Source of the DNA: Desulfarculaceae bacterium
GTDB taxonomy: Bacteria > Desulfobacterota > Desulfarculia > Desulfarculales > Desulfarculaceae
DNA: 64,000 nt
Direction: 5' to 3'
Assembly (NCBI GenBank): GCA_020444545.1
Contig: JAHLKT010000006.1
Coordinates: 1-64,000 of the forward strand
A program made the position numbers and the translations under genes. Positions within the stretch are counted from its first letter, which is position 1. Every line of letters begins with the position of its first letter. Positions 4,002 through 43,202 of this stretch are shown here, one piece after another. The notes under the pieces are model-generated. The model was not told the DNA's origin and made no database searches. It saw nothing but the letters and a program-made list of their open reading frames with translations.

Positions 4002-4785
4002 GGTCTTCGATTCGCCGAATATGAGCAGGCGCAGGTAACTATTGTTAAAGATTGTACCATTTCACGAGCAGAATGGTTTTGGGCGAACGCGATGCTCCAA
4101 GGGGCGGGCGAAGGCGGCTGCGGACCGTTGAGTCGCGCCACGCCAAAAAAAGAGGGCCTGCCTGATGCCGGGCCCCCTGGGGAGTTCTGGAGCGGGGCGA
4201 GAATTGAGGGCTCAGCAACCTCGGGTCGGTTCACTACGGAATGATGGCCGGAGGCGTTGAAGGCTGTGAGCATTAAGGTTGGATTGGCGAGGGTTAGGTT
4301 TTCGAGTAGCCAATTTTTTCAAGTTTCTAAGCAAGCCTGCCACCAAACCCATCCCCATTATGGGTGAAGATAGAATTTGTAAGTTGGAACCTTTTTGGCC
4401 GGGTCTGCTGCTCACATTGCTCGGCAACTGGGAATTGATCCAAGGACCGTAGCCCGGCAGCTAAATACAAGTCCATCGCCTAATTTTTAATCGAAGTTTG
4501 CGTAGTTGCGTTAAAAACTCTGTTCGGTTACGTCCATCTTGCAGCAGATATCCACACCGGTGCGCCGGCCCGGTCTACCAGAGGGCGTAGGCGATCTTCT
4601 CCCCCGTAAGCTTATATTTTTTGAACGCAGTCCTTCTCTCCGCAAATCGCGGCGGCACCTAAAGCCCAGCTCAATGTTCCGGGCCGGGATGCGATTACCA
4701 CAACAATTTTTCATGGCTTTTTAGTTTTTCCAAAAAGGCTTGACAGCCTAGGCACCGTAGTGGCAAAGTCCCCCTAGTGGTCGCT
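4002..4785. other. Gene-poor spacer left of the accessory region
   Basis: About 780 bases without a convincing gene. Near 4146-4178 the minus strand reads as a GC hairpin (GGGCC...GGCCC) followed by seven T, a terminator-like signal with no gene upstream of it in that direction. At 4201-4233 lies a 33-base repeat shared with 16481-16514. Base composition drops after about 4280. Short open frames here (minus strand 4212-4427 and 4511-4714) resemble nothing I recognise. The stretch may be scar tissue at the left edge of the accessory DNA. Confidence 0.5.
4201..4233 (-). repeat. 33-34 bp dispersed repeat, copy 1
   Basis: This segment matches 16481-16514 with one substitution and one single-base indel. 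Read on the minus strand it begins TGAACCG(A/C)CCCGAGG and ends CTCAATTC. A TGAACCGCCCC start is common at IS3-family element ends, so the two copies may be terminal remnants of one lost IS. The second copy sits exactly where the IstA remnant is cut off. Confidence 0.5.
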
Positions 4786-4810
4786 ATGCATATCATTGTT
4801 CGATATGCGT
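4786..4810. promoter_or_regulatory. Candidate operator upstream of the TAXI transporter
   Basis: Inverted repeat with nine-base arms, ATGCATATC and GATATGCGT (8 of 9 positions pair), separated by seven bases. It lies 103 bases upstream of the transporter start, in the only non-coding stretch before this gene set. The IclR-family gene at 10145 is the nearest regulator and the obvious candidate ligand-responsive binder, but that pairing is inferred from position only. Confidence 0.4.
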
Positions 4811-4913
4811 AACATTAAGCAGACAAGCGCGCGATGACAGACTTTAATGATCTGACCTTGAGAGAGGCAGTCACAAGTGGATTAACCCCACATATCAATT
4901 GCATGGAGGGACC

Positions 4914-5993
4914 ATGAAAAAGCAGCAATGGTCGCGGACCAAGTTCCACAAGGTAATCACCTTGTTCGCAGCGGTATTAATTCTTTCTTCCTTACTCGCC
5001 CCTCATTCTTTTGCCGCCAAAGTCCCTGATTTTCTTTCCATCTCCTCCTATCCCATAGGCGCGCATGGTGCATTCCTGGCCATGGTCTTCAGCGAGGCCA
5101 TCAGCAAGGAGACGGGCATCAAGACCCGTCCTCTGCCCGCCCCTGGCGACGTGGGCCGCTTCCTGGCCATCAAGCACGGCAATGCCGAGGTGGGCGTGTT
5201 CTCCGCCGCCAGCGTCTATGTGGCCAGCCACGGCCTGATGGAGTTCGAGAAATCCAAGCAGGGCCCCCAGAAGATCCGCAACGTCTTTGGTGGCGACACC
5301 CTGCCCCACGGCCTGATCGTCAAGGCTGATTCCGGCATCAAAACCTGGGCCGACTTGAAGGGCAAGCGGGTGGCCATGGCTCCGGGCCTCTTCTCCCTGA
5401 CCGTGCCCGCGTTTCTGGCCTATGGCGGGCTTACCCTGGACGACGTCACCCTGATCAGGGCCTCGGGCTATGTCTCGGCCATCAAAATGGTAATGTCTGG
5501 GGCCGCTGATGCCTGCCATGGCACGCCCATGACCCCGCTGATCAAGGAAATGGAGGCGGCTCCCTATGGCCTGCGCTTCATGCCCATTGACCCCAAGAAC
5601 AAGCAAGCGGTGGCGCGCATGCTCAAGGTCGCCCCGTTCCTTTCCAACATCGAGCTCATCAAGTTCGGCGCCCGTGGCGTAGGGGGTAAAGACGGCATCT
5701 ACCTGCCCGCCTACCCCTATGTGGTGGCCACCTATGCCTCGATGGACCCCTCTATTATCTACACGATCATCAAGGCGTTGGATGAAGGCCGCGATCTTTA
5801 CAAGAACGCCAAGCTGCCCTCCACCGCCCTTTTCACCATGCAAAGGACTTTTTCACTGAAGCTGCCCATCACCGTGCCTTTCCACGACGGGGCCATCAAG
5901 TACGCCAAGGAAAAGGGCCTCTGGACCGAGAAGCATGAAAAGTGGCAGGCCAACGCCCTGGCCGAAGAGGCCAAGAGGATGAAGGGCAAGTAA
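4914..5993 (+). CDS. TAXI-family TRAP solute-binding protein
   Basis: A 359-residue periplasmic binding protein for a TRAP transporter. Residues 1-34 form a signal peptide (basic MKKQQWSR start, hydrophobic core, cleavage near SFA-AK). The mature part has the TAXI features: an early SYPIGAHGAFLAMVFSEAI segment, a glycine-rich GDVGRFLAIKHGNAEVGV region and a LKGKRVAMAPG hinge strand. ATG 4914 is chosen over the in-frame ATG 4899 because GGAGGG lies directly before it. The fused permease follows after a 376-base gap containing strong hairpins. The ligand is unknown; TAXI systems commonly import carboxylates, and the neighbouring CoA-transferase points to an organic acid. Confidence 0.9.
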   Translation: MKKQQWSRTKFHKVITLFAAVLILSSLLAPHSFAAKVPDFLSISSYPIGAHGAFLAMVFSEAISKETGIKTRPLPAPGDVGRFLAIKHGNAEVGVFSAASVYVASHGLMEFEKSKQGPQKIRNVFGGDTLPHGLIVKADSGIKTWADLKGKRVAMAPGLFSLTVPAFLAYGGLTLDDVTLIRASGYVSAIKMVMSGAADACHGTPMTPLIKEMEAAPYGLRFMPIDPKNKQAVARMLKVAPFLSNIELIKFGARGVGGKDGIYLPAYPYVVATYASMDPSIIYTIIKALDEGRDLYKNAKLPSTALFTMQRTFSLKLPITVPFHDGAIKYAKEKGLWTEKHEKWQANALAEEAKRMKGK

Positions 5994-6075
5994 ATCCAAC
6001 GACGGCGAGGGCCGGGTCCCTGTTTGGCGAAAAAAAGTTTGCTTGATACAGCCAAGCCAAGGTTCCCCGGCCTAA

Positions 6076-6214
6076 GGCCCCGCGAGCAAAGGGGCCAGAA
6101 AACGCAAACGCGGAAAGAGGTTTGGCGAGAGTGGCTAAGCGTGAACCATCAGTGCATTCGCAGCGCAACGGCTTGCCGCCCATCGCCGGCCCCTTTCCGC
6201 GTATTGCGTTTTTT
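6076..6214 (+). terminator. Two stem-loops between TAXI binding protein and permease
   Basis: First hairpin: GGCCCC (6076-6081), nine-base loop, GGGGCC (6091-6096). Second: a long imperfect stem pairing 6098-6120 (GAAAACGCAAACGCGG and on) with 6191-6214 (CCGCGTATTGCGTTTTTTC), enclosing about 70 bases and ending in a run of T. Together they could act as a partial terminator or a 3' mRNA stabiliser, giving more binding protein than permease. The other three TRAP binding-protein genes in the window also have hairpins just downstream. Confidence 0.5.
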
Positions 6215-29199: not shown

Positions 29200-30501
29200 C
29201 TACATCATGGTGGAGGGTAGCCACAAAATTATCTGCGGGAAGATTATAACCAGGGCCAATCCCACCGAATCCAAGAGCATGAAAGGAGCCGCGCCTATCA
29301 GGATGTCCTTCAAGGATACATTGGAAGGTGCGATGCCCTTGATGATGTAGAGATTCAACCCCAGGGGCGGGGTGATTTGGGCCATTTCGGTATTGACCAC
29401 GAACATGACCCCGAACCAGACCGGATCGAATCCCAGCGCCTTGATGATGGGCACGAAGATGGGGATGGTCACCAGCAGGATGCCCGCCGGATCCATGATG
29501 CAGCCCAGGAAGATGAGGATGATGTTGATGCCCACGATCACCAGCCAGGGCGATGCGGACTGCTCCACTAGCCACGAGGAGAGCTGCTGGGGGAGTTGCA
29601 GGTAGCTGAGTACGAAGCCGAACAACGAGGCAGCCACCAGCACCCAGCCGATGAAGCAGGTGATGCGGCAGGTGCTCAGGAAAGCGCCCTTGATGGCCTG
29701 CCAGCTCAGGCGGCGGTAGGCGAAGCCGATGACCAGGGCCAGGAAACAGCCCACGCCGGCGATCTCGGCCGGAGTGGCGATGCCCAGGTAGATGGACAGT
29801 AGCATGGCCATGGCCAGGAATAGGATGGCCCACACCTTGTACAGGGAGCGCCAGCGATCCCGCCAGGTGATGCCCTCCATGCGAGGGGCCAAGGCGGGAT
29901 TAAGGGCGCAGCGGATGATGATGTAGAGGATGAACATGCCGCTGAGCATCATGCCGGGAACCACCCCGCCCATGAATAGCTGGCCTATGGACTCCTCCAC
30001 CAGGGTGCCGTAGATGATCATGTAGATGCTGGGCGGGATGAGCGCGCCCAGGGCCCCGCCCGCCGCGATGGAGCCGCAGGACAGGCGCTTCTCATAGCCT
30101 CGGTTGACCATCTCCGGCACCGCGATGCGCCCCACCGCCGCGGCGGTGGCGGTGCTGGCCCCGGACACCGAGGCGAACAGGGTGCAGGTGAGCTGGCTGG
30201 CCACGGCCAGGCCCCCGGGCAGACGGCCGGTCCATTTGGAGAGCATATCAAAGGCGTCGGTGCTCACCCCGGAGTGCAGGATTATTTCGGCCATGAAGAT
30301 GAATAAGGGTATGGCCGCCAGGGCGAAGTTGTTTATCTGCCCAAAAGCCGTGGTGGCCACCAGCATCAGCTTGTCGGTGCCCAACATGATCAGCACCAGG
30401 GTGAGGGACAGGGCGCCCAGGCTGAAGGCGATGGGAACCCCGATGAAGATGAGCAGGAGCAGGCAAACCAGGATGATGCTTAGCAGGGCCCACCATTCCA
30501 T
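29200..30501 (-). CDS. TRAP transporter large permease (DctM)
   Basis: A 433-residue permease with the complete DctM pattern: FIGVPIAFSLGALSLTLVL, AIPLFIFMAEI, VSGASTATAAAVGRIAVPEM, GALGALIPPSIYMIIYG and TEMAQITPPLGLNLYIIKGI. The true start is ATG 30501, which shares its first base with the last base of the dctQ stop (TGATG), giving translational coupling. An in-frame extension upstream to 30735 is overlap with dctQ, not protein. The order within the operon is P, Q, M. Confidence 0.95.
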   Translation of the reverse strand: MEWWALLSIILVCLLLLIFIGVPIAFSLGALSLTLVLIMLGTDKLMLVATTAFGQINNFALAAIPLFIFMAEIILHSGVSTDAFDMLSKWTGRLPGGLAVASQLTCTLFASVSGASTATAAAVGRIAVPEMVNRGYEKRLSCGSIAAGGALGALIPPSIYMIIYGTLVEESIGQLFMGGVVPGMMLSGMFILYIIIRCALNPALAPRMEGITWRDRWRSLYKVWAILFLAMAMLLSIYLGIATPAEIAGVGCFLALVIGFAYRRLSWQAIKGAFLSTCRITCFIGWVLVAASLFGFVLSYLQLPQQLSSWLVEQSASPWLVIVGINIILIFLGCIMDPAGILLVTIPIFVPIIKALGFDPVWFGVMFVVNTEMAQITPPLGLNLYIIKGIAPSNVSLKDILIGAAPFMLLDSVGLALVIIFPQIILWLPSTMM

Positions 30502-31055
30502 CAGTGGCCGCCTTTCTGCGGGGAGAAGGGCTCGCCCTTGCCCGCGAGGTAGCGCAGGTTGCACAACATGCGCACCACCAAAAGCAGGATCACCAGGCCC
30601 GAGCCCAGAGGTACCAGCACCTGAAAGGGGAACAGGGGCCAGCGCACCCCGCCCGAGGAGACCTCGTTGTAGACCAGCGACTCCCAGGCCAGCCGCCAGC
30701 CTTGCCAGAGCATGATGGCCGCGTAGTAGATGCATACCGCGTCGATGAACAGATCAAGCTTGGCCTTGGCGCGGCCGGTGAAGCGGCCGTAAAAAAAGTC
30801 GGCCCGCACGTGGCCGTCGATGGAGGTAGTGTAGGCCGAGCCCAGGTAGACCATGCCCACCAACAGGAAGGCGTTCAAGTCCACCGCCCAGTCGGTGGGA
30901 GCATTGAAGAAGTAGCGGCCGCCCACCTCGCGCACCAGGGCCGCCATCATCACCACGGCCAGGGAGCCGGCCAACCAGCCGCTCTGCACGGACAGCCAGT
31001 TCACGCCGTCCATGAAGCGGTCGAACCTACTACGGGAAACCGGGTCGCTCATCAT
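30501..31055 (-). CDS. TRAP transporter small permease (DctQ)
   Basis: A 184-residue four-helix DctQ protein. REVGGRYFFNAPTDWAVDLN is the typical N-terminal loop (R-YFF-x-W), and TSIDGHVRADFFYGRFTGRA is the conserved xxHVRxDxxY loop. ATG 31055 lies just after a GGGGGTGA sequence; ATG 31052 is an alternative. Coupled to dctM by overlapping stop/start. Confidence 0.93.
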   Translation of the reverse strand: MMSDPVSRSRFDRFMDGVNWLSVQSGWLAGSLAVVMMAALVREVGGRYFFNAPTDWAVDLNAFLLVGMVYLGSAYTTSIDGHVRADFFYGRFTGRAKAKLDLFIDAVCIYYAAIMLWQGWRLAWESLVYNEVSSGGVRWPLFPFQVLVPLGSGLVILLLVVRMLCNLRYLAGKGEPFSPQKGGH

Positions 31056-31081
31056 TCACCCCCGCGGCCCTTGGGCCGGTC

Positions 31082-31118
31082 CCCGGGGCCGGAGGGGGCA
31101 GGCGCCCCCGGCCCCGGG
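31082..31118 (-). terminator. Stem-loop after DctP (2)
   Basis: Eleven-base perfect stem CCCGGGGCCGG / CCGGCCCCGGG, with a further G/C-rich inner pairing, starting eight bases beyond the dctP stop and before dctQ. No U-run. Placed like the hairpins behind the other TRAP binding-protein genes. Confidence 0.55.
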
Positions 31119-31125
31119 CCAGTGC

Positions 31126-32181
31126 TTACTTGCCTTGGTTGAAGCGGTCCAGGATCGCCTTCTTGACCTGTTTGGCCTCGGCGCCCAGGCCCTGCTTCTC
31201 GCACTGCTTCACGTACCAGTCCCACACCGGCTGGGTCTTCTTGTACATGATCTCGGCCTGGGCCGGCGGTAGGGTGTAGAACTGCACGCCGCGCTTCTTG
31301 GCTTCGGCGATGATGGGGCCGTCCTGGTCCTTTTCATAGATGCCCACCCACTTGGCCCAGAGGTCCTTGGCCCGGGCGGTCTTGATGATCATCTCCTGAA
31401 GGTCCTTGGGCAGCTTGCGCCAGGCCTTGTTGCTCATCCACAGGAAGCCGGCCGCATAGCCGATGAGCGGCGGGTTCACCACCTGGTCGGCCACTTCCCA
31501 CAGGCGGTACTGCTTGAGGGAGTAGGTGGTCATCAGGCCGGCGTCCACCACGCCCTTTTGCATGGCCTGGTAGTACTCGCCGCCGATGGTCATCACCGGC
31601 GAGGCGCCCAGCATCTTGATGGCGATGGAGGCCGAGCCGCCGGCCGAGCGGATCTTCATGCCCTCGAAGTCGGCGGTGTTCTTGATCTTCTTGGCCCGGG
31701 TGGCCACCTGGAAGTTGTAAGGCGCCACCGGGGTGCAGGTGAGGTACTTGACCTTGGCCACCCGGCTGTAGGCCTTGTCCATGATCTGGGCCACCACGCC
31801 GTTGACCCCCAGGGCCCAGCAGTCCTCCCAGCTCCGGAAGTTGGAGGGAAGCTGCTGCCAGTCGCCGATGGCGATCTTGCCGTCATAGTAGGTGGGGTAG
31901 GCCATGAGCAGGTCGATGACCCCGTTGCTCAGGGCGTTGAGGGCCTCCTTCTTGCTCACCGGCTCGCCGCCGTAGTGGCGCTCGAACTTAATGCGGCCCT
32001 TGGAGTTGGCCTCGATGCGATCCAGCAGGTCATCCACCACCAAAAAGCGCATGTGGCCCTTGGGGTAGACCGATTCATACACCAGCTTGAACTGGGGCTC
32101 GGCCGCTTGGGCCGGAGCGCCCACCGACAGGGCCATGACCAGAGCCAGGCAGGCCATTATCAGCCAATAGGACTTTTTCAT
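31126..32181 (-). CDS. TRAP transporter solute-binding protein (DctP family)
   Basis: A 351-residue periplasmic protein. Signal peptide 1-26 (MKKSYWLIMACLALVMALSV, cleavage after AQA). Mature part: GHMRFLVVDDLLDRIEANSK opening, FEGMKIRSAGGSASIAIKML, where the Arg after KI is the conserved carboxylate-binding arginine of the family, and MTIGGEYYQAMQKGVVDAGL. GGGAGGG precedes ATG 32181. It lies downstream of the CitE-like lyase, so the ligand is probably the acid processed by this operon. Confidence 0.94.
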   Translation of the reverse strand: MKKSYWLIMACLALVMALSVGAPAQAAEPQFKLVYESVYPKGHMRFLVVDDLLDRIEANSKGRIKFERHYGGEPVSKKEALNALSNGVIDLLMAYPTYYDGKIAIGDWQQLPSNFRSWEDCWALGVNGVVAQIMDKAYSRVAKVKYLTCTPVAPYNFQVATRAKKIKNTADFEGMKIRSAGGSASIAIKMLGASPVMTIGGEYYQAMQKGVVDAGLMTTYSLKQYRLWEVADQVVNPPLIGYAAGFLWMSNKAWRKLPKDLQEMIIKTARAKDLWAKWVGIYEKDQDGPIIAEAKKRGVQFYTLPPAQAEIMYKKTQPVWDWYVKQCEKQGLGAEAKQVKKAILDRFNQGK

Positions 32182-32257
32182 AGTTTCCCTCCCTTATTAA
32201 CGCTAGCGCGCCATGAACTCTCTCCCGCCCCGGCACCGCATGGCCGGGGCGCCATAT

Positions 32258-33139
32258 TCACTCGCCGGGCTTCAGACTGGCCGCGAAGTCCAGGATGTCA
32301 CGGGCGGTGTGGGCCATGGCGTAGTCAACCATGTCCCCCTCGTAGACCACCGCCGCATGTCCCTGGGCCTCGGCCTCGGCAAAGGCGGCCAAGAGGCCCC
32401 GGTAATAAGCCAGCTCCTGCTCGGTGGGGGTGAAGACCTGGTTGACCACGGCCACGTGGCTGGGATGGATCAGGGCCATGCCTTGATAGCCCAGGGAGCG
32501 GTTGAGCCCCGCGTCCCGGGCCAGGCCCTCCAGGTCGGCCACGTCGTACCAGGAGTTGATCAGCGGTTGGGCCCCGGCCGCCCGGGCGTCCAGCACCAGC
32601 TTGGAGCGCAGGTAGAGCGTCTCGGTGCCTTGCTTGCTCCACTGGTAGCCGATGGAGCGCTGGGCGTCGCCGCCGGGCCCGGCGGACATCAGGATGGTGT
32701 CCACCCGGGGGCTGGCCGTGGCGATCTCGTAGGCGTGCCGCATGCCCAGGGCGGTCTCCAGGAGCAGCGGCGCGGCGATGGAGCCGGGCTCCATGCCTCG
32801 CTCCAACTCCAGGACGCCCAGCATCCGGTCCACCTCGGCCAATTCGGCGGCCTGGTAAACCTTGGGCAGCATCACTGCGGCTAGGTTGGGGTGGACCACG
32901 GCATCCAGGTCGCCCTGGGTAAGCCCGGTGGCTAGGCTGTTGAGGCGCACGCAGTAGTAATCGCCCGGCCGGGCCTGCTCCAGCACCGCGCGCACCTCGC
33001 GGCGGGCGTCCTCCTTGGAGCTTTGGGGCACCGCGTCTTCCAGGTCCAGGATCAAGCCGTCGGGCTTCACCTTCCAGGCCTTGTCCACCCAGGAAGGCTT
33101 GTGCCCGGGCACGAACAACAGGGAACGCAGGGGTCTCAT
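32258..33139 (-). CDS. HpcH/HpaI-CitE-like CoA-ester lyase
   Basis: A 293-residue TIM barrel of the citrate lyase beta / malyl-CoA / citramalyl-CoA lyase family. LLFVPGHKPSWVDKA, the DLEDAVP metal/substrate strand, CVRLNSLATGL (conserved Arg), LLLETALG with the Mg-binding Glu, and SAGPGGDAQRSIGYQWS with the second acidic ligand are all visible. It would cleave a beta-hydroxyacyl-CoA (malyl- or citramalyl-type) to acetyl-CoA plus a 2-oxoacid. ATG 33139 chosen by family alignment; the ribosome-binding site is weak. It lies between a CaiB-type transferase and TRAP genes. Confidence 0.9.
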   Translation of the reverse strand: MRPLRSLLFVPGHKPSWVDKAWKVKPDGLILDLEDAVPQSSKEDARREVRAVLEQARPGDYYCVRLNSLATGLTQGDLDAVVHPNLAAVMLPKVYQAAELAEVDRMLGVLELERGMEPGSIAAPLLLETALGMRHAYEIATASPRVDTILMSAGPGGDAQRSIGYQWSKQGTETLYLRSKLVLDARAAGAQPLINSWYDVADLEGLARDAGLNRSLGYQGMALIHPSHVAVVNQVFTPTEQELAYYRGLLAAFAEAEAQGHAAVVYEGDMVDYAMAHTARDILDFAASLKPGE

Positions 33140-33161
33140 GGGCGGTTCCCAGTTTGCATAA

Positions 33162-34343
33162 TCATTCCTTTTCCGGCGCGGTGGCCGCGCCCGAGGCCAA
33201 AAGCGCCTCGATTTCATCAAGGCCGTAGCCCAGCTCGGCCAGCACCTGGCGGGTGTCCTGGCCGATGGCCGGGGCCGGGCTATGCACCTCGGGCATGTAA
33301 CCGTCGGCCGCGATGGGGGTCTTCACCTGGGTAATGGGCCCCAGGTCCGGATGCTCCAGGGTCTGCAATATTCCCCGCGCCTGCACGTGGGGGTCGTCCA
33401 GCACCTGGCCCACGTCCAGCACCGGCCCGCCGGGGATGCCCGCCCGGCGAATCTCGGCCACCACCTCGTCGCGGGTGCGCGAGGCCAGGGCCTGCTCGAT
33501 AAGCCCGGTGAGTTCGTCGCGGTGGGCCACCCGGTCCTGGTTGGTGATGAAGCGCGGGTCTTGGGCCAGCTCCGGCCTCCCCAGCACCCCCAGCAGCGAC
33601 TGCCAGAAGCGCTCGGTGGAGGCCCCGATGAACAGATAGCCGTCCGAGGCCTTGAACACCTGGTAGGGCGAGAAGGCGGGCAGGGCCGAGCCGGCCCGGA
33701 CCGGCAGGTCGCCGTTCATGGAATAGCGGGCGATCAGCGGCGACATCCACGACAGGGCGGTGTCCAGCAGGCTGATGTCCACCCGCTGGCCTTGGCCCGT
33801 CTCCTGGCGCTCCAACAGGGCCTTGAGCACGGCCAGGGCGGTGTACATGCCCGCGCCCGTGTCGATCCAGGAGGCCCCGATCCGCACCGGGGGGCTGTCG
33901 TCGTGGCCGGTGCAGAGCATGATGCCGCACATGGCCTGGGCCACCACGTCGTAGCCGGGCAGGTTGCTGTAGGGCCCGGTCTGGCCGAAGCCGGAAATGG
34001 AGCAGTAGATCAGGCGGGGGTTGATCTCCCGGGCCGCCTCCCAGCCCAAGCCCAGGCGATCCATGGCGCCGGGGGTGAAGCTTTCGACAAGCACGTCGGA
34101 CTCGGCTATGAGCTTCTTGACCACCTCCACCGCAGCCGGGTTCTTAAGGTCCAGGGAGATGTCGCGCTTGTTGCGGTTAGCCGCCGCGTGGTAGGCCCCG
34201 CCCAGCAGGGGACGGAAATGGTCGCCGTGGGGATGCTCCACCTTGAGCACCGAGGCCCCGAAGTCGGCCAGGAGCATCCCGCAGAAGGGGCCGGCCAGGG
34301 CGTGGCTCATGTCCAAAACCTTGAGTTCGGCGAACACCGACAT
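33162..34343 (-). CDS. CaiB/BaiF-family (class III) CoA-transferase
   Basis: A 393-residue class III CoA-transferase. VLDMSHALAGPFCGMLLADF start, NRNKRDISLDLKNP, ISGFGQTGPYSNLPGYDVV and SWIDTGAGMYTALAVL with the catalytic Asp are present. GGGAGAGCC precedes ATG 34343. Not a close copy of the 18063 gene, so probably serves a different acid. Between a crotonase and the CitE-like lyase, it fits activation of a dicarboxylate. Confidence 0.94.
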   Translation of the reverse strand: MSVFAELKVLDMSHALAGPFCGMLLADFGASVLKVEHPHGDHFRPLLGGAYHAAANRNKRDISLDLKNPAAVEVVKKLIAESDVLVESFTPGAMDRLGLGWEAAREINPRLIYCSISGFGQTGPYSNLPGYDVVAQAMCGIMLCTGHDDSPPVRIGASWIDTGAGMYTALAVLKALLERQETGQGQRVDISLLDTALSWMSPLIARYSMNGDLPVRAGSALPAFSPYQVFKASDGYLFIGASTERFWQSLLGVLGRPELAQDPRFITNQDRVAHRDELTGLIEQALASRTRDEVVAEIRRAGIPGGPVLDVGQVLDDPHVQARGILQTLEHPDLGPITQVKTPIAADGYMPEVHSPAPAIGQDTRQVLAELGYGLDEIEALLASGAATAPEKE

Positions 34344-34358
34344 GGCTCTCTCCCGCCG

Positions 34359-35132
34359 CTACTTTCCCTGCCAAACCGGGGGCCGCTTTTCGGCAAAGGC
34401 CCTGGGCCCCTCCTTGGCGTCCTCGGTGGTTTTCAAAAGCTCGAAGATGGTGGTCTCCAGGCGGATGCCCTCGTCCAGGCTCATGCTTTGGGAGCGCACC
34501 ACCAGCTCCTTTATGGCCTGCAAGGCCAGGGGCGGGCTGGCCGCCAAGGCCCGGGCGTACTCGTCGGCCGCCTCCATGAGCTTCTCGCGGGGCACCACCT
34601 TGTTGATCAGCCCGAAGCGCAGGGCCTCCTCGGCGCTGAGCCGCCGCCCCAGGAGCACCATCTCCATGGCCACGGCGTAGGGAAGCTGGCGGGCGATGCG
34701 CTGGGTGCCCCCGTTGGCCGGCAGGATGCCCCGCTTCACCTCGGGGATGGAGAACACCGCGTCCTCACAGGCCACCCGGATGTCGGTGGCCAGGAGCAGG
34801 GTCATGCCTCCGGCCAGGCAGTAGCCGTTGATCGCGGCCACGATGGGCTTCCACACCTCCAGGCCTCGGTTGAGGATCTGGTCCTTCTGGGTCTGCCAGA
34901 ACTCGTACTTCTCGGGCTGGCGGGGGATGGTGGTTTTGAGGTCCGCCCCGGCGGTGAAGGCCTTGTCGCCCGCGCCGGTGACCACTGCCGCCCAGATCTC
35001 CGGGTCGTCGCGCACCTGGCACCAAGCCTCGGAGAGCAGGTGATAGGTTTCCGGGTCCATGGCGTTCATCACCTCGGGACGGTTGATGGTGATGTGGGCG
35101 ATATGGTCTTCCACCGAGAAGAGAACCTTCAT
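34359..35132 (-). CDS. Enoyl-CoA hydratase/isomerase (crotonase family)
   Basis: A 257-residue crotonase, first gene of the minus-strand operon. ITINRPEVMNAMDPETYHLL, FTAGADLKTT and NGYCLAGGMTLLLATDIRVA form the oxyanion-hole region, and VKRGILPANGGTQRIARQLP the catalytic Glu/GGTQR region (one acidic position reads K-R-G-I, so compare carefully). ATG 35132 chosen because GGGAG lies about nine bases before it; two in-frame ATGs lie upstream. Likely hydrates an unsaturated acyl-CoA produced after the CaiB step. Confidence 0.92.
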   Translation of the reverse strand: MKVLFSVEDHIAHITINRPEVMNAMDPETYHLLSEAWCQVRDDPEIWAAVVTGAGDKAFTAGADLKTTIPRQPEKYEFWQTQKDQILNRGLEVWKPIVAAINGYCLAGGMTLLLATDIRVACEDAVFSIPEVKRGILPANGGTQRIARQLPYAVAMEMVLLGRRLSAEEALRFGLINKVVPREKLMEAADEYARALAASPPLALQAIKELVVRSQSMSLDEGIRLETTIFELLKTTEDAKEGPRAFAEKRPPVWQGK

Positions 35133-35210
35133 GAAGAGCATCTCCCGGGCAGGGTGGGCGGTCGGGGGAAAAGCGGCAGCTCGGGGCCGGCCGCGCATTG
35201 GTTTCCATGG

Positions 35211-36778: not shown

Positions 36779-37576
36779 TCAATCAATTGTCACATCATAA
36801 CCAAGTAGTTTTGATACCTGCATTGAAGATTCGTTTAAGCGATACCGCATTTGGTATATAGCTGTTTTGGTCATTCTTTGGGTGGGGCCAGAAATACTTA
36901 GGGAGTAAACCGGTTTCTGGGTGTAGTCGAAAATAGGGACTGCGATGCATCGTATACCCTCGGCCCATTCTTCATCATCCACGGCGAAGCCTTGGGTTTT
37001 AATGTTTTTCAACTCTGCGCGAAATACCTTGATGGAAGAAATCGTATTGGGAGTCCTCTGCGTGAGTGTCCCATAACCTTTGATATAGGAAGAGACTGTT
37101 TCTTCATCGGAAAAAGATAAAATTGCTTTGCCGAGGGCAGTGGCGTGCGCAGCCCCTCGGCTACCGGGCGGCAACTCTGATTTAAGCGGCTTTTGGCTTT
37201 TGACCAAGTCTACTACCACCAATTCATTATTCTCAATGCAACCAAGATTAACCGTTTCACCGAATTCCGCACTGAGCTCCAACATGACATGCTTGGCCAG
37301 ATCTCGGATTTCCAGCCTGTCGACCACTAATCGCCCAAAGCTAAACATACGCAACGTAGTTCTGAATTTACCATCCCCCTCCTGAGCTACGTATCCTATG
37401 TCTCTTAACGTAGCGACAAAGCGATAGACGGCACTACGATTAAACCCCAGCAATTTGGCGAGTTGGGAAACAGTTAAGGGGCCTTGTAACGCCAACAACT
37501 CCAAAGCCATTAATCCTTTCTCCAAGGAACCAATTCGGTAATAGGGTTTATTTTTATCGGTTTCATTTTGATCCAT
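36779..37576 (-). CDS. IclR-family transcriptional regulator
   Basis: A 265-residue IclR protein. Winged helix-turn-helix about 15-75 (PLTVSQLAKLLGFNRSAVYR), then the effector domain with LPPGSRGAAHATALGKAIL and WAEGIRCIAVPIFDYTQ. ATG 37576 has GGGAG seven bases upstream; the frame continues upstream but without a site. Lower GC than its neighbours. It is divergent from panB, and a perfect palindrome overlaps the panB start region (38050-38072), so it probably represses or activates the PanB/TRAP/MBL operon in response to a small carboxylic acid. Confidence 0.92.
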   Translation of the reverse strand: MDQNETDKNKPYYRIGSLEKGLMALELLALQGPLTVSQLAKLLGFNRSAVYRFVATLRDIGYVAQEGDGKFRTTLRMFSFGRLVVDRLEIRDLAKHVMLELSAEFGETVNLGCIENNELVVVDLVKSQKPLKSELPPGSRGAAHATALGKAILSFSDEETVSSYIKGYGTLTQRTPNTISSIKVFRAELKNIKTQGFAVDDEEWAEGIRCIAVPIFDYTQKPVYSLSISGPTQRMTKTAIYQMRYRLNESSMQVSKLLGYDVTID

Positions 37577-38002
37577 AATATTACTCCCTTGCATGTAGCG
37601 TTTCGTTGAACTGTCAAAGGCGACTAAAAAAGAGAAAACAGTAGAACATCGGTGCGTTGCTATTTGTCGGGTACGTACTTCCTCAAGGTATAGCACGACC
37701 TGCAAGCCGGCTTGGGATGAGAAAACAATATAAAAACAGAATAAACCGCTAGAGCCTATATCAGAAGTTTGGCCTTGGCGTATACAAAAGTATAGTTTAG
37801 TCCCAATTTGGGGCCTTGCCGCCGAGAAGCGTCCGGGCCTTTGCTGTCATTTTAAGTGCACCAATTAAAAGCACCATCCATATTGTGAAATTGCCGATCA
37901 ATTTATAACCTTTAAAAATTGCTTTGTCAAACAAGCAAAAAACAGCTTATAAACCAATAAAATCGTATAGATAACAATTCAATCTCAATGTGATTTTGGA
38001 GA
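37577..38002. other. AT-rich divergent regulatory region
   Basis: About 430 bases, notably AT-rich (37700-37980), between the IclR gene and the panB promoter. No coding potential. It likely holds the IclR gene's own promoter and possibly more regulator sites, though I see no second copy of the 38050 palindrome. Confidence 0.45.
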
Positions 38003-38049: not shown

Positions 38050-38072
38050 GTGTGTTCGCATTGTGAACACAC
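38050..38072. promoter_or_regulatory. Palindromic operator before panB
   Basis: Perfect eight-base arms GTGTGTTC and GAACACAC around a seven-base centre (GCATTGT). It lies about 12 bases downstream of the predicted transcription start and 36 bases before ATG 38109, the position expected for a repressor roadblock. The divergent IclR-family gene is the likely binder (inference). Confidence 0.65.
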
Positions 38073-38108: not shown

Positions 38109-38954
38109 ATGGCCAAGCTTAGCCGAATTGATCTGCAGCGTATGAAAAATGAGGGAAAGGCTGTGGCTTGGGTGACCGCGTATGATTTCCCCACCGCCCA
38201 GTTCGCCGAAAAGGCTGGCATGGACATGCTCCTGGTCGGGGACTCCCTGGGTATGTGCGTGTACGGCTACGAGGGCACCATCCCGGTCACCGTTGACCAG
38301 GCAATCATGCACTGTGAAGCGGTGCGCAGGGCGGCGCCCAAGACCTTCGTCATCGGAGACATGCCTTTCCTTTCCTACCAGACGACCAGTTCGGATGCCG
38401 TGTTGAACGCGGGCCGGTTTTATAAAGAGGCCATGGTGGACGCGGTGAAGTTGGAGGGTGGGATAAGAGTTTGCGACCAAATCCGGGCCATCGCGGACGC
38501 AGGTATGCTCATCATGGGGCACATCGGACTTACCCCGCAGAGCTCCGGCCAACTGGGAGGCTTCAAGGCCCAGGGCACCACGGCGGCCTCGGCCATGGAC
38601 TTGATCCGCGATGCCGAAGCCATTCAAGAGGCCGGTGCTTTCTCGCTGCTGGTGGAGGCGGTTCCGCCGGAGGTTTGCCGGATCATCCGCGATCGGCTGG
38701 ATATACCGGTCTACAGCATCGGGGCCGGCATGCATGCCGATGGGCAGCTGATGATCTGCGCGGACATGTTGGGAATTTTTAAGGCGTTCACGCCCAAGTT
38801 CGTCAAAAGATATGCCAACCTTGGCGACCAAATTGTGGATGCTTTTCAGACCTACGTCAAAGAGGTTAAGGAAGTTGCTTTTCCCGCTGCGGAGCATTCT
38901 TACAATATGGTTTCCGGCGAGCTGGACAAGCTGAATCAGCTGCTAAACGACTGA
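38109..38954 (+). CDS. panB: PanB-type ketopantoate hydroxymethyltransferase
   Basis: A 281-residue TIM barrel of the PanB family, which adds a hydroxymethyl group from methylene-tetrahydrofolate to 2-oxoisovalerate. All expected active-site positions are present: Asp45 in VGDSLGM, Asp84 in IGDMPF, Lys114 and Glu116 in VKLEGG, His138 in GHIGLTPQ and Glu183 in LLVEAVP. The chemistry is therefore probably intact. However, panC and panD are absent and the gene leads an operon with a 2-oxoacid-type TRAP transporter under IclR control, so it may act in catabolism (for example retro-aldol of a 2-oxo acid) instead of pantothenate synthesis. The name describes the family, not a proven role. Confidence 0.88.
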   Translation: MAKLSRIDLQRMKNEGKAVAWVTAYDFPTAQFAEKAGMDMLLVGDSLGMCVYGYEGTIPVTVDQAIMHCEAVRRAAPKTFVIGDMPFLSYQTTSSDAVLNAGRFYKEAMVDAVKLEGGIRVCDQIRAIADAGMLIMGHIGLTPQSSGQLGGFKAQGTTAASAMDLIRDAEAIQEAGAFSLLVEAVPPEVCRIIRDRLDIPVYSIGAGMHADGQLMICADMLGIFKAFTPKFVKRYANLGDQIVDAFQTYVKEVKEVAFPAAEHSYNMVSGELDKLNQLLND

Positions 38955-39012
38955 TGCCAAGAATCCGATAGAGACGAAAAGGTACTGAACCTTTAAGCGG
39001 GATGCCGGCGAA

Positions 39013-39564
39013 ATGGAAGCTCACATCAATAGAACGAATTTCAATGGCTTAAAGAGAATTGTAACCGCTTTAAATTCAATAAATGAACGGGTAGGCCATT
39101 GGTCGTCATGGCTTACAACGCTTTTAGTAGGCGTTGTTTTCTGCGACGTGGTCATGCGCTACTTGTTCAATACCAGTTACGTCTTTATGCAGGAATTGGA
39201 ATGGCACGTTTTCGCCATGGCTTTCCTGTTTGGCGCCGGGTACACCCTTAAACGAGATAGTCATGTAAGGGTCGATATCTTCTATCAGAATGCAAGCAAG
39301 GAGAAAAAGGCCTGGATCAATTTGTTGGGCACGGTTTTCCTGCTAATTCCAGGATGCGTGATGATTATTTTGACTTCGTTGCCTTGGATATGGGAGTCCA
39401 TAAAAGTATTGGAGCACTCTCGCGATCCTGGAGGCATTCCGTTGAGATTTATCATTAAATCAACTCTGCCAATAGGGTTTTTATTTCTTTTATTGCAGGG
39501 CTTTTCTGTCGTTCTCTCAAGCATAGTAACCATATTTGGCGATGACAGCACTGAGGAGCAATAG
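39013..39564 (+). CDS. TRAP transporter small permease (DctQ)
   Basis: A 183-residue four-helix DctQ protein. DVVMRYLFNTSYVFMQELEW is the R-YLFN...QELEWH signature of the DctQ group that serves 2-oxoacid/mannitol-type TRAP systems, and TLKRDSHVRVDIFYQNASKE the conserved HVRVDxxY loop. Lower GC than the rest of the island. It is 58 bases after panB and six bases before dctM. Confidence 0.93.
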   Translation: MEAHINRTNFNGLKRIVTALNSINERVGHWSSWLTTLLVGVVFCDVVMRYLFNTSYVFMQELEWHVFAMAFLFGAGYTLKRDSHVRVDIFYQNASKEKKAWINLLGTVFLLIPGCVMIILTSLPWIWESIKVLEHSRDPGGIPLRFIIKSTLPIGFLFLLLQGFSVVLSSIVTIFGDDSTEEQ

Positions 39565-39570
39565 AAACTC

Positions 39571-40932
39571 ATGGAGTTCATAACCGAATATTTGGCGCTA
39601 TGGATGTTCGTGGTGCTCACTGTATTAATCCTCCGCGGGTACCCTGTCGCTTTCGGGCTCTTGGGGACTGCGCTGGTGTTTGGCCTGCTAGGCATATTTT
39701 TTCAAGACATCACAGGATTCAGATACCAAGAACTGCTAGCCATTCCGCTCAGGGCTTGGGGCACCATGACCAACGTGGTACTCATGGCGATCCCTCTGTT
39801 TATTTTTATGGGAATGGCCCTGGAGAGATCTGGGCTGGCCGAAGACCTACTGGAAACCATGGGGCTTTTGTTTGGCAAGCTCAAGGGTGGGTTGGCAATC
39901 TCGGTAGTGGTGGTTGGAGTTTTATTGGGCGCCTCCACGGGTATCGTGGGGGCGACTGTCGTCACTATGGGGCTCATTGCCTTGCCTGCCATGTTGAACC
40001 ATGGCTACAAACCTGAACTTGCCACCGGGACCATCATGGCCTCGGGTACCTTGGGGCAGATCATCCCACCTTCCTTAGTGCTGGTGGTGGTGGCTGACAT
40101 AATTCAAATCCCGGTGGGCGACCTTTTTATGGCCGCAGTTTTGCCCGGCCTGATACTATCCGGACTCTATATTATTTACATTATCATCTACTCAAATAAA
40201 GCCAAAGGTGTTGCCCCCGCAGTCGACCGGAGCAAGCTGGGGGTTAGCAATAATGCCGAAGTTTTTCAAAGAGTCCTAAAAACCCTTCTGCCGCTATTAA
40301 TCCTTATCGTATTGGTGTTGGGCTCCATTTTCGCAGGCATCGCATCACCTACGGAAGCCGCTTCGGTAGGTGCGGTTGGCGCTATTGTCCTTTCAATTAT
40401 AAACAAAAAATTCAGCTATAAAATGCTCAAAGAAGTCACGCTGGAAACCACGAATTTAACCTGCATGGTTTTCACTATAATTATAGGAGCTCGGGCATTT
40501 GGCTTGGTTTTCAGGGCCCTGAACGGGGACGAAATCCTCATGGATTTTGCTAGTCAAATAGTTGAGGCGCACTCTCGTTGGGTCTTCTTGGCCATTATCA
40601 TGGTCATAATATTCGTTCTGGGATTCTTTCTGGAGTTTATCGAAATATCCTTCATATTCTTGCCGATGCTGGCGCCCATGTTGATCTCGTTCGATTTCGA
40701 TCCATTGTGGATAGCTCTGCTTATTGGCTTAAACCTTCAGTGCTCATTTATGACACCTCCTTTCGGGTTCTCGATATTTTTCCTCAAAGGAGTCGCTCCT
40801 CCGGAGATTGACACCCTCCAATTATATAGAGGGGTGGTCCCTTTTATTGTCTTGCAGTTAATAGGAATAGCACTGGTTGTATTGATTCCGTCAATGGCTA
40901 CCTGGCTGCCTAAGGTTGTGTTCGGCCCCTAA
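39571..40932 (+). CDS. TRAP transporter large permease (DctM)
   Basis: A 453-residue permease. Full DctM pattern: RGYPVAFGLLGTALVFGLLG, MAIPLFIFMGMALERSGLAE, GASTGIVGATVVTMGLIALP, GTLGQIIPPSLVLVVVAD and LQCSFMTPPFGFSIFFLKGV. GAGGAG precedes ATG 39571. The MTPPFG and GTLGQIIPPS forms belong to the group paired with TakP-like binding proteins, consistent with the next gene. Confidence 0.95.
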   Translation: MEFITEYLALWMFVVLTVLILRGYPVAFGLLGTALVFGLLGIFFQDITGFRYQELLAIPLRAWGTMTNVVLMAIPLFIFMGMALERSGLAEDLLETMGLLFGKLKGGLAISVVVVGVLLGASTGIVGATVVTMGLIALPAMLNHGYKPELATGTIMASGTLGQIIPPSLVLVVVADIIQIPVGDLFMAAVLPGLILSGLYIIYIIIYSNKAKGVAPAVDRSKLGVSNNAEVFQRVLKTLLPLLILIVLVLGSIFAGIASPTEAASVGAVGAIVLSIINKKFSYKMLKEVTLETTNLTCMVFTIIIGARAFGLVFRALNGDEILMDFASQIVEAHSRWVFLAIIMVIIFVLGFFLEFIEISFIFLPMLAPMLISFDFDPLWIALLIGLNLQCSFMTPPFGFSIFFLKGVAPPEIDTLQLYRGVVPFIVLQLIGIALVVLIPSMATWLPKVVFGP

Positions 40933-41020
40933 AAAATATGGTCGAAACAGCCAACTCTTAACCTGTTGACCTTTAGCGTTAACAACATAGGCCTGAACCT
41001 ATAATGAGCAAGGAGCAGAC

Positions 41021-42166
41021 ATGACACGACGGAAAGAGGAAATCTCCAGCGAGAAAGGACAAAAAATGAACCGACGCCAAGCCCTAAAGAAGGTAGGAAT
41101 CGGTGCAGCCGCAGCGACTGGCGTCATTGTCGGAGCTCCTGCGGTACATGCCAAGAAGCGCTACCATTGGAAAATGGTGACCGCCTGGGGCCCCAACATG
41201 CCCTATCTGCAGACCGAGACAGAGGCATGGGCCAGGATGGTCGACAAGATGAGCGACGGCCGCCTGAAAATCAAAGTCTACGCCGCCAACGAGTTGGTCC
41301 CTGCCTTTGGTATTTTTGACGCGGTCTCAAGCGGCACCTATCAAGCCTTTCATTGCACGCCGTATTTCTGGGCCGGCAAGGTCCCCGCTTCCCAGTGGTT
41401 CGCGTGCGTGCCCTTTGGCCTCAACGCTCAGGGCATGAACGCCTGGCATTTTCATGGCGGCGGATTGCAGCTGTGGGAAGAGGCCTACAAGCCTTTCAAC
41501 TTGATTCCGCGCGTGGCCGGCAACTGCGGTTTCCAGATGGGCGGTTGGTTCCGGCGCAAGATCGAGACCATGAACGACTACAAGGGCCTCAAGATGCGCA
41601 TCCCCGGGCTGGGCGGCAAGGTGGTTGCCAAGGCCGGCGGCACCGTAACCCTAACCGCGCCTCCCGAAATCTTCACCAGCCTGGAGCGCGGCGTTATCGA
41701 CGCCGCCGAGTTCGTTGGCCCCCTGCTGGATATGAAAATGGGCTTGTACAAAGCGGCTCCTTATTACTACTACCCGGGGTGGCACGAGCCGGGCAGCGTT
41801 AGCGAGGCCACCTTCAACGCGGAGGCCTACAACTCGCTCCCCAAAGACCTGCAGGCCCTGCTTGACTACACTACCCAGACCCTGAACTTCCGCATGCTCA
41901 CGGGCTTTGAAGCCGACAACTCCGGGGCCTTGCGCAAGCTGGTGGAGGTCTACAAGGTCCAGCTCAAGGCCTTCCCGCCCGACGTCCTGCAGGGGCTAAA
42001 GGTGCTGGCCGACGAGGTCCTGGAGGAAGAGGCCGCCAAGGACCCCATGGCCAAGAAGACCCATGAGAGCTTCAAAAAGTTCCGGGACAAGATCGGCCCC
42101 TGGAGCATGGTGTCCGAGAAGGCCTTCTACGATCACCTTCTCAGGAACTACAAAGTAGCGTCATAG
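41021..42166 (+). CDS. TRAP solute-binding protein, TakP-like (2-oxoacid type)
   Basis: A 381-residue binding protein. Two starts are plausible: ATG 41021 (AGGAG five bases upstream) and ATG 41066 (AAAGGA upstream). The latter gives a compact Tat-like signal, MNRRQALKKVG, then an Ala-rich core and cleavage after VHA. The mature protein opens WKMVTAWGPNMPYLQTE and contains YYYYPGWHEPGSVSEATFN, which I know from the TakP group that binds monocarboxylic 2-oxoacids. Tat export would imply folding before transport. This is a QMP-ordered TRAP set with the binding protein last. Confidence 0.9.
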   Translation: MTRRKEEISSEKGQKMNRRQALKKVGIGAAAATGVIVGAPAVHAKKRYHWKMVTAWGPNMPYLQTETEAWARMVDKMSDGRLKIKVYAANELVPAFGIFDAVSSGTYQAFHCTPYFWAGKVPASQWFACVPFGLNAQGMNAWHFHGGGLQLWEEAYKPFNLIPRVAGNCGFQMGGWFRRKIETMNDYKGLKMRIPGLGGKVVAKAGGTVTLTAPPEIFTSLERGVIDAAEFVGPLLDMKMGLYKAAPYYYYPGWHEPGSVSEATFNAEAYNSLPKDLQALLDYTTQTLNFRMLTGFEADNSGALRKLVEVYKVQLKAFPPDVLQGLKVLADEVLEEEAAKDPMAKKTHESFKKFRDKIGPWSMVSEKAFYDHLLRNYKVAS

Positions 42167-42186
42167 GCCTTATCTAGCCATAGATC

Positions 42187-42222
42187 GCCAGCCGGGCGTG
42201 GGCAATGCGCCCGGCTGGCCTT
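42187..42222 (+). terminator. Stem-loop after DctP (3)
   Basis: Perfect 12-base stem GCCAGCCGGGCG / CGCCCGGCTGGC, nine-base loop, followed by CTTT, 21 bases after the dctP stop. A terminator or attenuator between the TRAP genes and the metallo-beta-lactamase gene. Confidence 0.65.
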
Positions 42223-42254
42223 TGGAGGCCATGTTTTAATCCGGAGGATGCAAG

Positions 42255-43202
42255 GTGGCTCAGATATTGCGGGGAATTGAAAAGATAGAAATATTGACCC
42301 TACTGGACAACTACGTGGACATGGTGGCCCAGGATAATAGCGATATGGTCCAAAGGGCCATGCCCCTGGATGACGGATATTTTCGCAAGAGCGTAGCCGC
42401 TGAACACGGATACTCCGCGGTGCTTTCCGTGGATGACGGTCAAACCTCTAGAAAACTCTTGTTCGACTTCGGCTTTTCCGAGCACGGTGCGGTGTACAAC
42501 GCCGAAATCCTCGGGGTCGATTTTGCTGAAATTGAATGCGTGGCGCTCTCTCACGGCCACCCGGATCATCTCGGAGGTTTCGCGGAAGTCGCCAAACTTT
42601 TAGGGAATGTGCCCATGGTGGTTCACCCCGCCGCCTTCATCAACAACCGGTATTTGAAGACCCCGGCCGGGACCCTGCTCCAATTCGCGCAGTTCACCGA
42701 GGAACAAGTAAGAGAAGCGGGGCTGCTGTTAATCAAGTCGGAGGGGCCATATCCTCTTCTTGACAAGACCATGCTCTTTTTGGGGCGGGTACCTCGCCAA
42801 GTTCCCTTTGAGACCGGTTTGCCCGGCTTTTGCCACCATGACGGCAACGAGGAACATCTGGACGCTATCGACGACGACTCGGGCCTGGTTTGCCATCTGA
42901 AAGGCAAGGGTTTGGTCATCCTGGCGGGGTGCGCTCATAGCGGAATCATAAATATGGTGAAGTGGGCCCGTGAGGTGACCGGGGTCAGTAAAGTCCATGC
43001 GATCATGGGCGGCTTTCATCTCTCCGGTGAATTTTTTGAACCGGTAATCGAACCGACTATCGAGGCCCTTAAGGAGATAGACCCAGACTATATCTTGCCA
43101 ACTCACTGCACCGGTAGAAAGGCCGCCATGCAAATTGAGGCCGCCATGCCCGATAAATTTATTCTGAATATGGCCGGGACCAAAATAACCTTCCAAGCAT
43201 AA
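42255..43202 (+). CDS. MBL-fold hydrolase, dihydropterin-type (COG1237-like)
   Basis: A 315-residue metallo-beta-lactamase-fold protein starting at GTG 42255 (GGAGG upstream). SHGHPDHLGG (99-108) is the HxHxDH metal motif, GCAHSGIINMVKW the second His region and the end IMGGFHLSG the third. The layout resembles COG1237, whose archaeal members make 7,8-dihydropterin-methyl-aminobenzene ribofuranosyl phosphate; bacterial members are mostly uncharacterised. Next to a PanB enzyme that uses a pterin C1 carrier this is suggestive, but function is unproven. Confidence 0.82.
   Translation: MAQILRGIEKIEILTLLDNYVDMVAQDNSDMVQRAMPLDDGYFRKSVAAEHGYSAVLSVDDGQTSRKLLFDFGFSEHGAVYNAEILGVDFAEIECVALSHGHPDHLGGFAEVAKLLGNVPMVVHPAAFINNRYLKTPAGTLLQFAQFTEEQVREAGLLLIKSEGPYPLLDKTMLFLGRVPRQVPFETGLPGFCHHDGNEEHLDAIDDDSGLVCHLKGKGLVILAGCAHSGIINMVKWAREVTGVSKVHAIMGGFHLSGEFFEPVIEPTIEALKEIDPDYILPTHCTGRKAAMQIEAAMPDKFILNMAGTKITFQA

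Follow-up and report, generated by a model that had tools for sequence, protein, structure and literature searches.

What does a protein of the ketopantoate hydroxymethyltransferase family (PanB) do at the head of a transport operon that contains neither panC nor panD? The question is raised by a locus in contig JAHLKT010000006.1 of a Desulfarculaceae bacterium (assembly GCA_020444545.1), whose positions 1 to 64,000 constitute the window analysed here, and in which panB is followed by genes for a tripartite ATP-independent periplasmic (TRAP) transporter and a metallo-beta-lactamase-fold (MBL) protein. A preliminary description of the locus proposed a catabolic or salvage use of PanB chemistry, with import of a branched 2-oxoacid or a ketopantoate-like compound and one-carbon (C1) transfer. 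The comparative evidence, composed of a separate PanB branch, its gene contexts and the ectoine operons found in it, favours catabolic use with C1 transfer and disfavours the branched substrate, since the pocket of the branch differs and close relatives stand in pathways whose expected products are C4 oxoacids. The PanB of the window is a paralog within this branch; that the branch is mainly catabolic and the window enzyme runs its reaction in the cleaving direction is given about an even chance.

A second panB and a separate PanB branch

On contig C4 the genome carries another panB, which is followed immediately by panE and has a folD-like gene divergent from it; panC and then panD lie side by side on contig C7. 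Therefore, the window PanB, which shares 45% identity with the C4 copy, is a paralog and not the sole panB of its genome. The preliminary description would have been refuted had this been the only panB of a genome with panC/panE, which is not the case; it had asked for another panB next to panC, and the copy found adjoins panE.

The window PanB shares with the PanBs of TIGR00222 (solved structures 1m3u and 1oy0) the family and the six catalytic residues (D45, D84, K114, E116, H138 and E183), and it scores above the curated cut-offs (PF02548, 341 versus 28.7 bits; TIGR00222, 290 versus 207.55; NF001452, 336 versus 272). It differs by its placement on a separate branch, by bulkier residues at positions 21, 181, 202, 214 and 216, and by having no link to panC or panE. 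Across 63 genomes from the class, the listing gave 25 places with at least 57% identity to the window PanB, while all others listed had 51% or less. In a tree of 80 rows, built after 21 duplicate PanB matches had been dropped, 60 rows including the window formed one branch with support 100/100; in a larger tree with more copies (5 duplicates dropped), this branch comprised 72 rows with an SH-like approximate likelihood ratio test (SH-aLRT) value of 96. Five long-branch rows (L150, L151, L160 and two in L170) were assigned to neither group. The members of the branch come from Desulfobacterota, Halanaerobiales, Sporomusa, Sedimentibacter and others. L170, from a genome of the window's genus, holds a tandem, very divergent PanB-family pair (4470-6199) before genes resembling those of ATP-binding cassette transporters.

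The gene contexts inside and outside the branch were compared by counts, with Fisher values that are descriptive only, since they take related rows for independent ones and similarity to the window protein guided the choice of branch loci. Genes for PanE or PanC lay no more than 8 kb away in 2 of 71 branch rows, compared with 19 of the 30 rows outside, and a gene for the ectoine hydrolase DoeA in 14 of 71 and 0 of 30, respectively, with 10 rows lacking context omitted (1 in the branch, 9 outside). Many gene names in these operon maps come from clusters of which few members were tested against Pfam or NCBIfam, or were read by eye (FolD, AGCS carrier, GlyA, aldehyde dehydrogenase, alanine dehydrogenase, PanC/PanD neighbours and LysR). 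TRAP genes occurred near PanB at similar frequencies inside (21/71) and outside (8/30) the branch, and therefore TRAP alone is no argument. One branch member (L137) adjoins formate-tetrahydrofolate ligase. Moreover, three Halanaerobiales genomes, that of Halanaerobium sp. MA284 among them, encode 2-3 PanBs with no panC found, and several Bacillota likewise have branch PanBs and no panC found; a search of 40 genomes detected panC in 22, and the drafts and metagenome-assembled genomes (MAGs) among them may miss genes.

The active site is preserved in its chemistry and altered in its pocket. The six catalytic residues were invariant (60/60 and 16/16 rows). Position 21 was W or F in 72/72 branch rows and in 0/39 outside, and position 181 was L in 70/72 and 0/39, respectively; in the branch, Y, L, F or M replaced I at position 202, and L and I often replaced V at positions 214 and 216. 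The window PanB reads WLYLIA at positions 21, 181, 202, 214, 216 and 218, and thus lacks the pocket of the PanE/PanC-linked rows, which mostly read MVI(V/I)V(H/N); the W-L-Y-L-I pattern is common to the window PanB and most ectoine-linked rows. Window positions 181, 214 and 216 align with E. coli 179, 212 and 214, and some of the changed positions (202/214/216) presumably line the site of the substrate methyl groups. Bulkier side chains there would favour a product that is smaller and unbranched, as pyruvate is. In both branch rows near PanE (L092 and L156), positions 214 and 216 are V, as is position 181 in L156; this agreement between pocket and context is weak, because V at both 214 and 216 is common throughout the Sedimentibacter-type subgroup, none of whose members showed a nearby PanE. 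Another PanB group (L071, L072, L155 and L169), with the pocket M-V-(I/M)-N-N-Y, lies beside LarA, dihydroxyacid dehydratase (DHAD) or transporters and is perhaps a third substrate class.

Ectoine operons and the proposed cleavage

The 14 operons with DoeA are spread over three parts of the branch, namely Desulfobacterota, Halanaerobiales and the f1/f3 genomes. They contain an IclR or GntR regulator, PanB, a family of about 315 aa termed C5 (L100:10849-11796 and relatives), a class I/II transaminase or a GDH-like dehydrogenase, one or two DoeA and a DoeB2-like M20 protein, with EutA in some operons and EutB plus RidA in many; transport genes are of TRAP type or, in some Halanaerobiales, encode an AGCS-like carrier. 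The IclR family of the window (cluster c4) precedes PanB in several of these operons. The partner names were assigned by NCBIfam models (ectoine hydrolase DoeA, TIGR02993, 470 bits; EutB, NF005680, 372 bits; DoeB2, NF038260, 295 bits), all with scores under the equivalog cut-offs. The transaminase or GDH-like gene was present in 14/14 operons, in L081 only as a 3′ end read by eye, and no class-III transaminase or aldehyde dehydrogenase was recognised in the 14, several of whose stretches stop inside the operon.

Aerobic breakdown of ectoine, a salt protectant, proceeds via an aldehyde. Independently, a 2026 paper (PMC13188858) reports that ectoine clusters of this kind in Thermodesulfobacteriota usually hold two eutD homologs and no eutE or ssd; the clusters treated there include that of Desulfospira joergensenii, the source of locus L100, and according to the legends a part played by the extra cluster genes has not been shown. 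The terms "panB", "pantothenate" and "hydroxymethyltransferase" had 0 occurrences in its main text, and a search of openly licensed papers found none linking PanB to ectoine breakdown.

From this gene content, we infer a reaction in which PanB would cleave 4-amino-2-oxobutanoate with tetrahydrofolate (THF) to pyruvate and methylene-THF. In general terms, the substrate would be a 2-oxoacid whose C3 bears CH2-OH or CH2-NH2; it would be split to a 2-oxoacid, pyruvate in the case of C4 substrates, with the C1 unit passed to THF as methylene-THF. In the ectoine operons, DoeA and the DoeB2-like deacetylase would give diaminobutyrate or its 3-hydroxy form; the alpha-nitrogen of diaminobutyrate would then be removed by the class I/II transaminase or the GDH-like dehydrogenase to yield 4-amino-2-oxobutanoate, a compound that could also arise by EutB elimination from 3-hydroxy-diaminobutyrate, with RidA. 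PanB would thus close an anaerobic ectoine/hydroxyectoine route by converting 4-amino-2-oxobutanoate to pyruvate, ammonia and methylene-THF.

The chemistry has an engineered precedent in the synthetic 4-hydroxy-2-oxobutanoate pathway (Bouzon et al. 2017), in which, as PMC6966089 describes, 4-hydroxy-2-oxobutanoate is cleaved by the panB of E. coli; the reaction is also given in PMC8719824. It is the reaction proposed here, in which C1 passes from a 4-substituted 2-oxobutanoate to THF and pyruvate is released; that pathway is engineered and called non-natural, whereas native catabolism is proposed for the branch PanBs.

C5 lies directly beside PanB in 13/14 ectoine operons. It matched no family in Pfam or NCBIfam, and a PDB sequence search gave no match; its AlphaFold2 model is a TIM barrel with a mean predicted local distance difference test (pLDDT) score of 78. 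Its assignment to a known enzyme was not sustained, with structural matches spread over unrelated barrels at near-tied Z values of 13-15. A family of 420 aa with no Pfam match also lies beside branch PanBs (L112:3498-4760, L114, L137, L141, L142, L147 and L149, the last two assigned from gene size and place only), with a GDH-like gene at some of these loci; a relation of C5 to this family (probability 26%) was not upheld.

The transport operon of the window

The locus is composed of the following features, in agreement with the preliminary description as to the operon, its coordinates and its six catalytic residues.

36779-37705, minus strand: IclR-family regulator, divergent from the operon (PF01614, IclR_C, 155 bits; NF045644, 182 bits)
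38050-38072, no strand: palindrome GTGTGTTC-N7-GAACACAC, a candidate operator, its core also in L093
38109-38954, plus strand: PanB paralog (ketopantoate hydroxymethyltransferase family), 281 aa, proposed as a catabolic 2-oxoacid C1-lyase (PF02548, TIGR00222, branch placement and catalytic residues)
39013-39564, plus strand: DctQ, TRAP small permease (PF04290, 70 bits)
39571-40932, plus strand: DctM, TRAP large permease (PF06808, 278 bits; TIGR00786, 326 bits)
41021-42166, plus strand: DctP solute-binding protein of TakP (2-oxoacid) type with a twin-arginine-like signal (PF03480, 156 bits)
42255-43202, plus strand: COG1237-like MBL protein with HGHPDH (PF00753, Lactamase_B, 35 bits)

All operon proteins scored above Pfam cut-offs. 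As previously noted, panC and panD are absent from the operon (both lie elsewhere, on contig C7), and PanE was not found within it either. The order IclR-PanB-DctQ-DctM-DctP-MBL recurs in a Desulfarculaceae MAG (L093/G049), a second species of the genus, with the six proteins 85-93% identical (IclR, 87%); the exact gene set was found in these two species of one genus only. A conserved panB-TRAP-MBL cluster, which the preliminary description had suggested looking for, was thus seen in a sister species and not beyond the genus, PanB with MBL occurring in 2/71 branch rows, the window and its sister species. A plasmid search gave 649 records, all at <60% identity, with no close relative among them.

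DctQ, DctM and DctP form a TakP-type TRAP system. The nearest solved chains of DctP include 4pet, 5cm6, 2hzk (which we take to be TakP) and 7ug8 ("Ketoacid-binding protein"), with similarity over nearly the full chain, and DctP would accordingly be expected to bind a 2-oxoacid. Compared with the DctPs of the ectoine operons, it showed 20-28% identity where a match was found. The MBL protein has the MBL fold and HxHxDH of the COG1237 type and is similar over most of its chain to 2p4z and 3h3e (TM1679), with 7dck also among its nearest solved chains; it could open a lactone of the imported acid.

The IclR regulator probably controls the operon. Its listed start is an upstream TTG, and the real start may be further in. 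The palindrome ends 36 bases upstream of the PanB start and its core, GTTC-N7-GAAC, is present at a similar place in L093; the ectoine loci L099, L100 and L102 carry a different, TGTCAC-type palindrome at a similar place. An operator conserved across the operons was not upheld, as the others among the 15 loci checked had none.

On the minus strand beside the operon, a cluster at 29200-35198 encodes DctM-like (29200-30735) and DctP-like (31126-32181) proteins, a CitE/RipC-like lyase, a CoA-transferase III and an enoyl-CoA hydratase, and looks like an itaconate/citramalyl-CoA-type catabolic unit. Elsewhere in the survey, PanB was found with MttB-family methyltransferases (L095, L097, L130 and L150, with a EutA-like gene in three) and adjoining lactate-racemase-like LarA genes (L134, L108, L158, L075 and L151).

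Competing explanations and significance

The window operon is not itself an ectoine unit, because DoeA is absent from it and neither DoeA nor C5 was found in the genome. Most likely, by analogy, it imports a 2-oxoacid and cleaves it as the ectoine-operon PanBs would: the TakP-type TRAP system would import the acid directly, PanB would split it, and methylene-THF would enter the folate/Wood-Ljungdahl pool. The genome encodes carbon monoxide dehydrogenase/acetyl-CoA synthase (CODH/ACS), and therefore methylene-THF has a use. The best guess for the substrate is 4-hydroxy-2-oxobutanoate or a near relative. The fuller proposal holds that native, THF-dependent cleavage of 4-amino- or 4-hydroxy-2-oxobutanoate by the branch closes a hitherto undescribed anaerobic pathway, in which ectoine and hydroxyectoine end up as pyruvate, acetate, ammonia and C1-folate, with the window operon as the variant for imported 2-oxoacids; it is regarded as tentative, at slightly less than an even chance.

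Several observations weigh against catabolic cleavage. Inside its subclade, the window PanB forms a stem by itself in both trees, and it exceeds the TIGR00222 cut-off, which is that of a panB equivalog. Five f3 genomes (G004, G008, G009, G011 and G013) have panC and a single PanB, which is of the branch, and therefore some branch members may still make ketopantoate. The C5 barrel has no place in the proposed scheme. Finally, the ectoine inference is not directly transferable to the window genome, whose best match to DoeA was a 27% M24 match and in which the C5 family was not found in a search run with no positive control alongside.

The main rival as to substrate, put forward in the preliminary description and considered unlikely, would have the TakP-type TRAP import ketopantoate or another branched 4-hydroxy-2-oxoacid for cleavage, the products being 2-oxoisovalerate and methylene-THF. 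A TakP-type DctP suits a 2-oxoacid, and a PanB outside the branch (L064) lies near a TakP-like DctP 46% identical to that of the window, which therefore keeps the rival alive. Moreover, two loci resemble pantoate or pantothenate catabolism: L140, with TRAP, PanE and PanB, and the Halanaerobiales locus L156 (185-11080), which encodes PanB, PanE, a peptidase S58, a class-III transaminase and an alanine-dehydrogenase-like protein and looks like pantothenate catabolism. However, their pockets are canonical or partly canonical (MIIVVH in L140, WVYVVA in L156) against the WLYLIA of the window, whose operon has no PanE. TRAP, DHAD, PanB and PanE occur together in L169; DHAD beside PanB was ambiguous as a sign of sugar-acid catabolism, as DHAD is likewise found ahead of PanB where pantoate is made in the usual way.

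Forward synthesis, in which imported 2-oxoisovalerate or a related acid would yield ketopantoate for coenzyme A, appears improbable. The five f3 genomes and the equivalog score speak for it, but the window genome already has panB-panE and panC-panD, branch rows are rarely near PanE or PanC, and Halanaerobiales genomes hold two or three copies with no panC found. Just as improbable is an assembly of neighbours with no common substrate, or an operon for an unrelated substrate with PanB as a spare copy; the restriction of the exact gene set to one genus and the equal frequency of TRAP genes inside and outside the branch fit this explanation, whereas the conservation of all six genes in the sister species opposes it.

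Archaeal COG1237 relatives act in pterin synthesis, and the membership of the window MBL in this type had suggested a C1-carrier module in which it would synthesise or alter the pterin carrier of PanB; this is very improbable, and an MBL-PanB functional pair was not upheld, since no panB lay near relatives at 38-57% identity in 6/6 loci, the pair was confined to one genus, no pterin or folate gene link was seen in the contexts of these relatives and no NCBIfam pterin model matched the MBL.

The locus is an unusual assembly of ordinary parts, and the contexts of the branch point to an unrecognised catabolic reaction. If the proposal is true, panB by itself would be no proof of pantothenate synthesis, and genes labelled as vitamin biosynthesis in sulfate reducers and Halanaerobium would encode catabolic enzymes that release C1 units. 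The steps still missing from anaerobic ectoine breakdown would then gain a defined enzyme open to testing, and nature would prove to use a one-carbon reaction that has been described as artificial.

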